Source: an uncultured Blautia sp. (GTDB lineage: Bacteria; Bacillota_A; Clostridia; Lachnospirales; Lachnospiraceae). Taken from it: a stretch of 54,578 nucleotides of DNA. Below, one piece after another: positions 19,682-23,602 of the stretch (position 1 is the stretch's first letter; each line of letters begins with the position of its first letter). The DNA is taken from assembly GCA_905209435.1 (NCBI GenBank), contig CAJLTE010000011.1, positions 1 through 54,578 on the forward strand, written 5' to 3'. The notes beneath the pieces were generated by a model that was given only the letters and a program-made list of their open reading frames with translations, did not search any database and was not told where the DNA came from. The translations under genes and the position numbers were made by a program.

Positions 19682-21133
19682 TTATTTGCTTAATTTCTCA
19701 ATAGCTGCCTTTACTCGTTTGATTGTCTCGTCTTTACCGATGATCTCCATGATCTCAGTAGCACCGGCCGGCGTCATCTGCTTGCCGGAAACAGCAGTAC
19801 GCAGAGGCCACATTACATATCCGTTCTTATAACCATGCTCTTTTACAAATGCACTTAATGTTTCAAATAACGGATCATTTGTATAATCTTCCTGTTCTTC
19901 CAGAACCGGAAGTACTTCTTTTAATACTGTAAGAGAAGTCTCTTCATTTGTCTTCATTTTCTTATGGCAGTACATGGCGGAATCATATTCCGGTACTTCC
20001 TCAAAGAAGTCAATCAGAGCCGGAATGTCAGGGAATGTTTCGATTCTGGTCTGTACCATTCCTGCAATCTTTTTGAAGTTGTAGTCTTTCTTCAGAACTT
20101 CTTTCATATACGGAAGTGCTCTCTCATAGAATTCATCCGCATCCATTTTCTTGATATACTCACCATTCATCCAACGAAGTTTCGCAATATCAAATACTGC
20201 CGGAGATTTATTGATATGATGATAATCAAATACCTGTACCAGTTCATCCAGTGTAAAGATCTCTCTGTTGTCAGAAGGACTCCATCCGAGAAGTGCCACA
20301 TAGTTGATGATTGCTTCTGAAACAAATCCCTGATCAAGCAGGTCTTCATAAGAGGAATGTCCACAACGTTTGGAAAGCTTCTGGTGTGTCTCATCTGTGA
20401 TCAGCGGACAATGTACATAAACCGGGATATCCCATCCGAAAGCTTCGTAGATACGGTTGTATTTCGGAGCTGAGGAAAGATACTCGTTACCTCTTACTAC
20501 GTGTGTGATTTCCATTAAATGGTCATCGATTACGTTTGCAAAGTTATAAGTTGGGTATCCGTCAGATTTGATCAGGATCAGATCTTCCAGTTCCTCATTG
20601 TTTACTGTGATATCTCCGTAGATTACATCATGGAATGTTGTAGTTCCCTCTGTTGGCATATTGAAACGGATTACGTGTGGTTCTCCTGCATCAAGACGAC
20701 GCTGTACTTCTTCTTTGGAAAGTTTAAGGCAACGTTTGTCATAAATGGAAATCTCTTTTCCTGCCACAACACGTTTCATACCTTCCAGTTCTTCCTTCTT
20801 ACAGAAACAGTAGTATGCATCACCCTGTTCTACTAACTGCTGTGCATATTTCAGATAGATCCCCTGTGCCTGACGCTCACTCTGAACATACGGTCCAAAG
20901 CCTTTGTCCTTGTCCGGACCTTCATCATGGAGAAGTCCTGTTTTTGCAAGAGTACGGTAGATAATATCTACAGCGCCTTCTACGTAACGTTCCTGGTCTG
21001 TATCTTCAATACGGAGGATGAAATCTCCGCCTTCATGTTTTGTAATAAGGTATGCATATAATGCTGTTCTTAAATTTCCAACATGCATTCTGCCTGTAGG
21101 GCTTGGTGCAAATCTTGTTCTGATCTTGGTCAT
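19682..21133 (-). CDS. gltX: Glutamyl-tRNA synthetase
   Basis: Class I synthetase charging tRNA-Glu (possibly also tRNA-Gln). The HIGH-region [17 protein letters not shown] is at residues 8-24 and the KMSKS-region [15 protein letters not shown] is near 245. The C-terminal anticodon-binding helical domain is complete. It has 483 residues from the ATG at 21133, which lies eleven bases after AGGAG; the upstream GTG (21145) is too close to that site. It heads the gltX-helicase-PPTase-propeller run and is preceded by a short leader with a terminator-like hairpin. Confidence 0.97.
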
Positions 21134-21174
21134 AACTTTTTTCACTCCTGAATTTTTTATATATTCAAAATCTG

Positions 21175-21250: not shown

Positions 21251-21294
21251 GTCGGGATGTCATAAAATTTCAAAAATTTATTGTGGACGGGGAC

Positions 21295-21509
21295 GCATGG
21301 GAAGCGCTAATGTCCGGAGGCTCAGTTTCAGAACCATTGTAGTTCTAGGCATTCGAAAAGCCGCTAAAAACATGAGCCGCTCTCTCAAACTCGCTCCGTT
21401 GCAGACTTCGCTCAGACAGTGAAACGATCGTCTCATAACGCGTCTTTCCCAATACCAAGAACTACAATGAACCTTCAAATTCGCCCCCGGACATTAGCGC
21501 TTCCCATGC
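21295..21509. repeat. Large hairpin element 1 (215 bp)
   Basis: The outer arms 21295-21317 and 21487-21509 are a perfect 23-bp inverted repeat. Further in, 21335-21346 and 21458-21469 pair perfectly (CATTGTAGTTCT/AGAACTACAATG), and weaker pairing continues to the apex, so nearly the whole element folds on itself. The apex (21363-21441) carries five short blocks, among them GTCTCATAACGC (21430-21441), CGCTCAGACAGTG (21409-21421) and TCAAACTCGCT (21385-21395). All are shared in reverse complement with element 2. No open reading frame of note lies inside. It lies 45 bp upstream of the gltX -35 box. Confidence 0.85.
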
Positions 21510-21661
21510 TGACTATCAGCCAAATAACATATTTGCTATACAATATAGCCTGATTGCAGTTAAAACCTTACGAAATGATAAACTTATAATCAATAACCCT
21601 ATTCCTTTACACTATCTAAATATAAACACCAAGAAAACATATGACAACATACAACAAAACA

Positions 21662-21865
21662 GCGCATAAAAATATTTTATTTCAGGTGCATTTGCAGGTA
21701 TCTTAGATCTTCTTAGGCAAAAAAAATCTGCGTTATGAGACAGCAAGGTCACTGTCTGAGCGTCAGCGAGTTTGACCTTGATGACTCATGGTTTTAGCAG
21801 ATTTTTTTCGCCTTAGAAGATCTTAGATGCCGAAACCGCACCTGAAATAAAATATTTTTATGCGC
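21662..21865. repeat. Large hairpin element 2 (204 bp)
   Basis: The outer arms 21662-21689 and 21838-21865 are a perfect 28-bp AT-rich inverted repeat. Inner arms around 21700-21730 and 21791-21830 pair with few mismatches, including AGATCTTCT and AAAAAAATCTGC/GCAGATTTTTTT. The apex has GCGTTATGAGAC (21730-21741), CACTGTCTGAGCG (21750-21762), AGCGAGTTTGA (21765-21775) and CTCATG (21785-21790), plus an internal 8-bp stem CAAGGTCA/TGACCTTG (21744-21751, 21773-21780). It is opposite in orientation to element 1, with unrelated stem sequence. It ends 21 bp from the accDA stop codon. Confidence 0.87.
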
Positions 21866-21886
21866 GTCCCTTTTGAGAATCACAAT

Positions 21887-23602
21887 CTACATTCTGCGAA
21901 ACCTTTCATATCTTTCCTGCGCAATCTGTTCTCCACTCTTACCAGAGTGCTTCACCAGAAACTGTTTCATTCGGATTTTCATGTATTCTACGATTTCCGG
22001 TAAATTTTCCTCGCTTGCAGGATATTCCTCTGGTATGATGCGTTCGATGATTCCCAGTTCTTTCAGATGAGCCGCCGTTACTTTCATAACCTCCGCAGCT
22101 TCCGGTGCCTTCCTGCTGTCTTTCCAGAGAATGGAGGCGAAACCTTCTGGTGAAAGGATGGTGTAGGTTGCATTTTCCATCATCCAGACTTCATTGCCGA
22201 CCGCCAGTGCAAGTGCGCCGCCGCTGCCGCCTTCACCAATTACGATAGAAAGCACCGGCACTTTCAGATCTGACATTTCCAGTAAATTTCGTGCAATGGC
22301 TTCTCCCTGTCCGCGTTCTTCTGCTTCCAGCCCGCAGAATGCTCCCGGAGTATCTACAAACGCAATAACTGCACGCCCGAACTTCTCTGCCTGTTTCATC
22401 AAACGGAGTGCTTTCTTATAGCCCTCCGGCGACGGCATTCCAAAGTTGCATCTGATATTTTCTTTTGTAGTGTGTCCTTTGCGGATTCCGATCACGGTGA
22501 CGGGTTGTCCGTCCAGTGTGGCGATGCCGCCGATGATGGCGTTGTCGTCTTTGACTCCTCTGTCACCGTGGAGTTCCATGAAGTCGTCAAAGATTGTATC
22601 AATATATTCCGCTGCAGATGGTCGGTCACTGCTTCTGGCAATCTGAACTCTGTCCCAGGCTGTGAGATTCTTTGGTCTCCTCTGTTTTTTCTTTTTGCCA
22701 AAGGTGTCGAATGCCCTTGCTGCAGTTTCCTGTGGGAATTCCCCATATTTTTCTCCGGAGTTGTGTAGTTTCAGGATCAGCGAAAGCGTATCCCGCATGG
22801 AGCCTCGTTCTACAATTCCATCAAGGAAACCATGCTCCAGAAGAAACTCCGGTCTCTGGAAGCCTTCCGGGAGTTTCTGGCCTATGGTCTGTTCAATAAC
22901 TCTTGGGCCTGCAAATCCGATCAGCGAACCTGGTTCTGCAAGGATAATATCTCCAAGCATGGCGAAGCTTGCAGTAACTCCGCCCGTGGTCGGGTCTGTC
23001 AGTACGGATGTGTAAAGAAGTCCTGCTTCGGAGTGGCGTTTGATGGCTGCAGAGGTCTTTGCCATCTGCATCAGTGACACGATTCCCTCCTGCATTCTGG
23101 CACCGCCGGAACAGCAGAACAAGATGACCGGAAGGCCCTGTCGTGTGGCTTCTTCAAATGAACGGGTGATTTTTTCTCCCACTACATAGCCCATGGACGC
23201 CATCAGAAATCTTGCATCCATAGCTCCGATCACACTGCGGATACCGCCGATCGTAGCTTCTCCGATGAGGATTGCTTCATCCATCTTTGTTTTCTCTTTC
23301 AGGTCTTCGATCTTCTGCGGGTAGTCCGGATAATCCAGTGGATTGCTGTTTTCTATTCCTGTAAACCACTCTTTGAAACTCCCCTTGTCTGCGATCATCT
23401 TAATGCGGCGTTTTGAGCTGATTCTGAAATATCCCCCGCATTTCGGGCACACATAGGCGCTGGATATTACATCTTCTCTGTAAACCATTTCTCCGCACTT
23501 CGGACATTTGATCCATAAACCCTCAGGTACGGAAACAGATGCGGACTGTTTGTTCCGCTGTTCTGAAACTGTCTTCTTAAAAAATCTTTTCAAGTCTGCC
23601 AT
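21887..23602 (-). CDS. accDA: Acetyl-CoA carboxylase carboxyltransferase, beta-alpha fusion
   Basis: Transfers the carboxyl group from biotin to acetyl-CoA. Residues 1-280 are AccD: zinc ribbon CPKCGEMV...CPKCGGYF, then [11 protein letters not shown] and [14 protein letters not shown]. After a basic linker (about 290-310) comes AccA ([18 protein letters not shown] to the end, with [22 protein letters not shown]). At 571 residues the fusion is shorter than separate subunits together (about 600-610), because the AccA N-terminal helices are trimmed. The ATG follows AGGAGCAGG. It is the last gene of the fab/acc operon. Confidence 0.95.

Follow-up and report, generated by a model that had tools for sequence, protein, structure and literature searches.

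Paired hairpins in a Blautia genome belong to a patchily distributed family of bacterial repeats with conserved unpaired bases and variable, self-complementary arms

Two hairpins in the 54,578-nucleotide stretch of uncultured Blautia sp. DNA that we analyzed (the window) belong to a large family of non-coding hairpin repeats with a patchy distribution. As a rule, interspersed palindromes of bacteria are recognized by their sequence; here, a set of unpaired marks and the lengths of the helices are kept, and the sequence of the helices is free. We rate the chances as about even that the family is a non-autonomous mobile DNA element, i.e., a folded hairpin with rewritable arms.

Both hairpins lie within a 741-bp gap that extends from the stop codon of an accD/accA-type gene, 21 bp away from element 2, to the listed start of a gltX-type gene, roughly 150 bp away from element 1 (Table 1). 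In a mechanical inverted-repeat search, the arms of element 1 (21295-21364 and 21440-21509) were 80% complementary, the outer 23 bp being perfect by eye. Those of element 2 (21662-21689 and 21838-21865) were 100% complementary over 28 bp, with a second pair of arms (21697-21731 and 21797-21831) at 89%. Compared with shuffled sequences, element 1 gave fold z-scores of -8.9 as DNA and -13.0 as RNA, and element 2 gave -14.8 as RNA; none of 200 shuffles was as good in any of these tests. Head blocks of 14 and 12 nt in one element pair with their counterparts in the other (inverted repeats I4 and I5). A covariance model, R1, matches element 1 at 21323-21482 on the minus strand (117.3 bits) and element 2 at 21689-21838 on the plus strand (137.7 bits); the model's training rows included both elements. 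At the gathering cut-off, no Rfam family matched anywhere in the window, and the sole match between 21150 and 21950 at a relaxed threshold (E<=5) was a chance-level microRNA outside both.

Table 1. Features of the hairpin pair and its neighbors, in window coordinates
Feature	Position	Strand	Basis or content
Element 1, 215 bp hairpin	21295..21509	- (head read on minus strand)	Inverted repeat I1 and fold z
Element 2, 204 bp hairpin	21662..21865	+ (head read on plus strand)	Inverted repeats I2, I3 and fold z
3' terminal tail, element 1	21289..21294	-	GTCCCC on minus strand, GGGGAC on plus
3' terminal tail, element 2	21866..21870	+	GTCCC
Element 1 head: asymmetric internal loop CA[CTGTCTGA]GC ... 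GC[GAGTT]TG and tip	21385..21422	-	Sequence reading
Element 2 head: CACTGTCTGAGCG TC AGCGAGTTTGA	21750..21775	+	Sequence reading; core alignment (partly by construction)
Element 2 outer variable helix, 5' arm	21662..21689	+	Partner 21838-21865, 28 bp perfect
AT-rich spacer of the divergent pair, bounded by the 5' end of each element	21510..21661	.	Sequence reading
Acetyl-CoA carboxylase carboxyltransferase gene, AccD/AccA-type fusion	21887..23602	-	Pfam ACCA and Carboxyl_trans
Glutamyl-tRNA synthetase type gene (gltX-type, tRNA-synt_1c)	19682..21145	-	Pfam and ORF list

An earlier reading of the window, made from its sequence only, had described two oppositely oriented hairpins, perfect outer arms of 23 and 28 bp, and five apex blocks shared in the same order in opposite orientation (49 identical bases). 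The hairpins were borne out to the base by the inverted-repeat search and the shuffles, the arms by sequence reading and the same search, and the blocks by sequence reading. That reading also took the arms of the two elements to be unrelated, which is correct for the outermost ~27 bp. Further in, however, the arms have a homologous layout of short motifs, which shows only after further copies are aligned.

We searched a collection of species-representative genomes for the head pattern CACTGTCTGAGCN{1,22}GCGAGTTTG and found at least 120 stretches in at least 66 assemblies (counted by accession prefix). Among the matches listed, 66 assemblies consist of 38 whose titles place them in Bacillota and 28 others, which presumably belong to Bacteroidota, proteobacterial groups, Campylobacterales/Helicobacteraceae, Nitrospirota and Gastranaerophilales. 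Single outlying matches may be contaminants, because many assemblies are MAGs, and in at least one case, L029 (Pseudohongiella), the pattern matched where there is no hairpin. As a control, the backwards pattern had no match in any of the 32 genomes or records or in either even genome sample. Head-pattern copies number 64 in genome G002, 36 in G004, 22 in G011, 21 in G008, 15 in G019 and 18 in Blautia wexlerae (G001). Among the matches listed for a covariance model of the core, G090 has about 40 distinct copies and G013 has about 30; each of these genomes is mainly one long contig, that of G013 being a single-contig chromosome. The distribution of the family across genomes is patchy: in even samples that include the seed genome, 5 of 120 genomes from the family of G001 and 3 of 118 from the phylum of G016 contain the strict pattern. 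Near-identical copies, as judged by eye, occur within G002, G004 and G011. As the sequence-only reading had anticipated for a search with the apex, the head recurs in many genomes on many hairpins with new yet self-complementary arms.

Clostridial copies measure ~205-300 bp and have in common the ends CA|GC...GC|GTCCC, the length of the arms, five conserved unpaired marks and, often, divergent pairing. We examined the ends of 210 copies with distinct surroundings, and accepted them as clean in 64, using a rule that demands CAG[CT] and GG[GT]AC ends and pairing at 16 or more of the 22 outer positions. The remaining 146 include some that are truncated at the end of a contig and some from lineages whose ends differ. 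G002 accounts for more than half of the 64 (26 by locus range and about ten CAJTEM loci). The 5' foot of the clean copies, CA|GC, is part of this rule, as is the GTCCC or GTACC after their 3' end. Outer pairing is 22/22 in 43 of the clean copies, 21/22 in 15 and 20/22 in 6, and no copy falls in the range of 16 to 19. The head lies 87-90 or 105-114 nt from the 5' end in 63 of the 64.

An alignment of 33 cores contains 40 invariant columns. Of these, 21 are head columns, whose invariance in 33/33 rows partly follows from the use of the head as search key; among the G013 copies found with the model, the head itself is slightly variable. Two T-T mismatches do not form part of the key and are kept in 33/33 and 29/33 rows (a gap or A stands there in the remaining four), and GT...TTT loops are further conserved marks independent of it. 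Among the predicted pairs, 38 of 51 are changed on both sides. Both elements of the window have this layout, with mutually dissimilar outer arms. Two side observations concern sequences near the elements. In non-clostridial copies (L013, L034, L057, L130 and others), a T-rich second hairpin, e.g., GTTACTTTTT...AAAAAGTAAC, follows at most ~130 nt after the head hairpin in 21 of 34 tested. Immediately outside G002 elements (L055, L260, L265 and others), another repeat, GTGTGAACAGTAAC, is often present, sometimes as inverted copies on both sides.

Between one copy and another, the outer arms agree at about 60% of positions, with a mean identity of 0.61 and 0.58 in two subfamilies, in which 518 of 528 and 1737 of 1804 cells are paired within copies. 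We counted the outer helix in 63 clean copies, where it is 24 bp long in 22 and 44 bp in 41. Among the 2332 cells, 2255 are Watson-Crick, 23 (4+19) are G-T on the head strand, 26 (5+21) are A-C, equivalent to G-T on the opposite strand (~1% each), and 28 are other mismatches. An RNA helix would be expected to favor G-U on one strand. Because G-T is no commoner than A-C, pairing seems to be kept at the DNA level, and the outer helix thus appears to be maintained as DNA. Inner stems have a mild excess of G-T (46, versus 34 A-C). A cruder count of the whole hairpin gave 143 G-T versus 69 A-C, part of which reflects one conserved T-G pair. In a control with 10 tRNAs, 222 pairs included 18 G-U and 0 A-C, although this control is weak, since the tRNA finder favors G-U.

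Orthologous copies were taken from related genomes in the genus of G001, giving 32 in-register comparisons at 20 sites. In 17 comparisons, each arm has at most 2 differences in 27 positions, even with flanks that are only 87-91% identical. In another 9, at 4 of the 20 sites, three or more arm differences are compensated, i.e., the arms were replaced in concert and in place. An arm or part of the core has been lost in 5 comparisons (L343/L214, L364/L195, L335/L208, L336/L209 and L336/L369). The one remaining comparison, of element 1 of the window with G090, has 3-4 arm differences, 2 of them compensated. Rewriting is uncommon, given that the 17 comparisons are practically unchanged and the 5 show decay of one arm.

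The strongest site (L344 in G090, L202 in G001 and L370 in G044) has three different arms in three species around one core, and each is self-complementary. Of the 27 positions in the 5' arm, 15, 14 and 13 differ between species, 14, 13 and 10 of them with compensation, and self-pairing amounts to 27, 26 and 25 of 27. The cores are 95%, 93% and 92% identical, compared with 81-84% for the best paralogous cores, and the best match to any other known arm is at most 0.74, versus a mean of 0.64. The site catches the joint replacement of both arms around a nearly unchanged core. By eye, the change in the arms ends at the conserved ATTTGCAGG loop; since the tract stops at this first conserved internal loop, the outer helix acts like a module that can be rewritten. 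It is important to emphasize that wholesale replacement is seen at this one site. Smaller cases are L334/L213, where 3 of 3 arm differences are compensated, and L355/L198, where a matched one-base shift is common to both arms. Element 2 of the window differs from its G090 ortholog at 4 of 27 positions, all 4 compensated, but whole-element replacement is possible in this case, because the core is only 0.80 identical. The T-T mismatches persist, though copying between arms would erase them if they were neutral.

These comparisons modify the proposal, made from the window alone, that the arms are remade on each insertion. Concerted replacement does take place, in place and at 4 of 20 sites, but in more than half of the comparisons the arms have barely changed. 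Nor are the arms new at every insertion; copies of one subfamily have arms that are related to varying degrees, as the mean identities above indicate.

The site of the window is variably filled. G090 has both elements. In G012, element 2 is accompanied by half of element 1, adjoining inserted genes that resemble a restriction-modification system. G001 carries element 2 alone, plus a GGGACGCATG remnant, and G044 carries neither, with a GGACGCAT stretch as a possible remnant. Another site, L366, is filled in G090 and G012 and unoccupied in G001 (ACAACCAACAATATTATACC) and G044 (ACACCCATTATTATACC), which read straight through, and the GTCCC-type tail is missing from both unoccupied sites. No target-site duplication was evident when G012 was compared with G044 at L366, the one site used for this purpose. 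Among 16 element-bearing G001 loci that were compared, 15 have an orthologous element-bearing locus in G090. At L371 in G001, compared with L341 in G090, the core has been lost, and a 26-bp perfect palindrome of outer arms remains with its immediate flanks inverted. This remnant and the loss of element 1 in G001 look like palindrome-driven deletions. Thus, presence/absence differences are real, part of the absence being loss. The filled and unoccupied sites, which the sequence-only reading had suggested should be sought, fit a mobile element, with the reservation that some absences are deletions.

Among the copies listed, 20 of 21 neighbors less than 600 nt apart are divergent, with their 3' ends outward. 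The 21 cases are 10 pairs and one tandem-cluster step in G013, four cases in G002, two each in G090 and G010, and one each in G001 and the window; two of the 20 divergent pairs are orthologous to others. The sole exception belongs to a same-strand cluster of four copies near parA in G013. In this cluster (L327, 1000-3900 of the reverse complement), the tandem copies lie beside the parA-like gene and are interleaved with TGTTTCACGTGAAACA sites, which we take to be parS-like, and a second hairpin type with different ends is also present. By eye, several spacers of G013 pairs (L317-L326) contain GC-rich variable stretches amid AT-rich surroundings. We considered a distinction between left-type and right-type hairpins, and rejected it, as 10 G013 pairs showed no split (mean identities 0.68, 0.68 and 0.69). 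We likewise rejected candidate autonomous copies, namely three wide divergent pairs in G090. They enclose ordinary genes (HAD-like hydrolase, histidinol-phosphate aminotransferase-like and amidohydrolase-like, named by reading the sequences) and no transposase.

Elements occur in both orientations relative to neighboring genes. With neighbor genes set by choosing the longest ORF, 23 of the 37 scorable copies in G090 have a stop codon facing their 3' end, compared with 14 of 40 for the 5' end. In the same genome, 29 of 40 copies run against the replication fork (dnaA at 1072), or 24 of 30 when pairs are excluded (Fisher p=0.0024), whereas the six single copies in G013 are split 3:3 between replichores. 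We do not accept this bias as proof of single-strand insertion, because it is confounded with gene direction, which accounts for much of it, and is lacking in those six copies.

It might be supposed that the family is a structured RNA, such as a 3'-UTR regulator or a ribozyme-like fold, whose conserved loops on covarying stems spread within transcripts. The strong RNA fold of both window elements, the pairs changed on both sides, the tendency of 3' ends to face stop codons in G090 and the excess of G-T in inner stems are all consistent with this, and the inner part may have an RNA role. However, the outer arms lack the surplus of G-U that RNA helices keep, no Rfam family matches the elements, both orientations relative to adjacent genes occur, and presence is patchy even within the family of G001. 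We therefore regard an RNA as unlikely. The sequence-only reading had left a choice between a mobile and a structured RNA or DNA element; mobile DNA fits, and a structured RNA is not favored for the outer arms. The G090 stop-codon counts could also be cited for transcription terminators or insulators behind genes, but this idea has very little probability. In 14 of 37 cases the 3' end faces no stop codon, no consistent T tract is apparent by eye, and the elements, at 200-300 bp and with their conserved internal loops, greatly exceed an intrinsic terminator in size. Moreover, one member of each divergent pair points away from its partner.

An old, immobile repeat would have spread anciently and be subject to ongoing loss, with arms that are complementary only by mutation bias (quasipalindrome correction). 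The many loci shared by G001 and G090 accord with this, as do losses visible as deletions between short repeats. Template-switch mutation at quasipalindromes, which is reported for E. coli (PMC7202029), also counts in its favor. Against it, there are near-identical copies inside G002, G004 and G011, mismatches that survive within the very same hairpins, and a patchy distribution, and we judge immobility improbable. A giant form of REP/BIME/REPIN, mobilized by a RAYT (a Y1 tyrosine transposase) acting on single-stranded DNA hairpins, would also be non-coding and interspersed, with conserved mismatches, divergent pairs and no evident target-site duplication. Y1_Tnp (PF01797) was indeed found in 15 of 22 element-bearing genomes, with 13 matches in G090. 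However, it was not found in the single-contig chromosome of G013, despite the ~30 copies there, or in six others of the 22, mostly drafts, and many of its matches lie in frames of ~130-170 aa, which are IS200-like by size. None of 30 PF01797 loci had a convincing head motif beside it; two matches with 3 mismatches look like chance. We consider this form of mobilization improbable too, and on the absence from G013 and the lack of linked elements we reject Y1_Tnp/RAYT as an obligate mobilizer.

No mobilizing gene was found. When ORFs up to 4 kb from copies were clustered over 155 loci, no neighbor gene recurred convincingly. On inspection of representatives by eye rather than with Pfam, the largest cluster (9 loci) resembles an ABC transporter, while several of the rest are spurious reading frames across the hairpins themselves. 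RVT_1 is present in 7 of 10 genomes, with no match in G008, G011 and G019 (21, 22 and 15 copies), which are MAGs and possibly incomplete. Either the mobilizing enzyme belongs to another family, or genomes that have only old copies no longer carry it.

A non-autonomous mobile DNA element, the reading that we prefer, could work as follows. The non-coding element would be recognized as a folded single-stranded (or cruciform) hairpin, and its identity would be carried by the short ends CA|GC...GC|GTCCC together with unpaired bases fixed along the stem, i.e., the head loop, the two T-T mismatches, the TTTGCAGG/CCGAAACC loop and the GTTA/TTTTAGC loop. The helices between these marks would need only complementarity and a set length. 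Complementarity would be held at the DNA level, with a changed arm serving as the template for the other arm, and the simplest route for such copying would be template switching across the hairpin in replication. Dispersal, both of single hairpins and of divergent pairs, would depend on an enzyme that acts in trans and leaves no evident target-site duplication. We propose more tentatively a wider reading, in which these repeats form a phylum-spanning class of mobile DNA with identity only in unpaired bases, whose enzyme reads structure and whose blank helices are periodically overwritten from arm to arm. If so, lineages would have the head and geometry in common, yet no arm sequence. The free helix sequences of the family and the joint arm replacement at the three-species site open two old questions to direct test, namely how perfect inverted repeats are kept up, and whether dispersal can act on nothing more than a folded strand.

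Among known systems, REP/BIME/REPIN sequences are interspersed hairpins with mismatches, inverted doublets, a probable single-stranded DNA substrate, RAYT transposases and a GTAG/GGAG tetranucleotide at the foot. The present family is also non-coding and interspersed, and likewise has mismatched hairpins and doublets. However, its elements are several times larger, with free-sequence arms of fixed length and conservation in the apex rather than the stem, and no RAYT is linked to them. We therefore place it outside the RAYT-associated repeats, since neither an obligate RAYT nor a transposase flanked by the hairpins was found. Integron attC sites are folded single-strand hairpins read by extrahelical bases, with a mostly free stem, conserved ends (R/L boxes), a variable tip and an integron integrase. 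The family resembles them in having unpaired marks on the variable stem of a hairpin that may be read as a folded strand, but it keeps the tip and internal loops and varies the outer arms, which is the reverse of attC. ERIC/IRU, RUP and other MITE-like repeats are intergenic palindromes in many copies that are conserved lengthwise within a species group. The conserved terminal inverted repeats of DDE-type MITEs are not found here; the ends are limited to CA|GC...GC|GTCCC, and the outer arms differ.

Cozzuto et al. 2008 (PMC2267715) describe stem-loop sequence families that are intergenic palindromic repeats in many copies. The present family differs from these, and from ERIC/IRU, RUP and MITE-like repeats, in that only the head is common between phyla and the arms vary from copy to copy. 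In a report on Nematomorpha mitochondria (PMC6649704), perfect coding palindromes are long, mismatch-free inverted repeats, for which repeat conversion and template switching are discussed. They are coding and mitochondrial, lack a conserved head, and are not dispersed copies of one element. Among the matches listed from the open-access literature, none describes this hairpin family.

The hairpins seem to break assemblies, because many draft contigs of G004 and G011 end in or beside an element, and assembly breaks and local rearrangements in the genomes of these gut bacteria may be due to them. One further copy, at 23-226 of L002 (MT836232.1, deposited as 'Bacteriophage sp.' from human feces), is the same element as L341. 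Its flanks are the same as in G090, and the record therefore looks like bacterial chromosome rather than phage.
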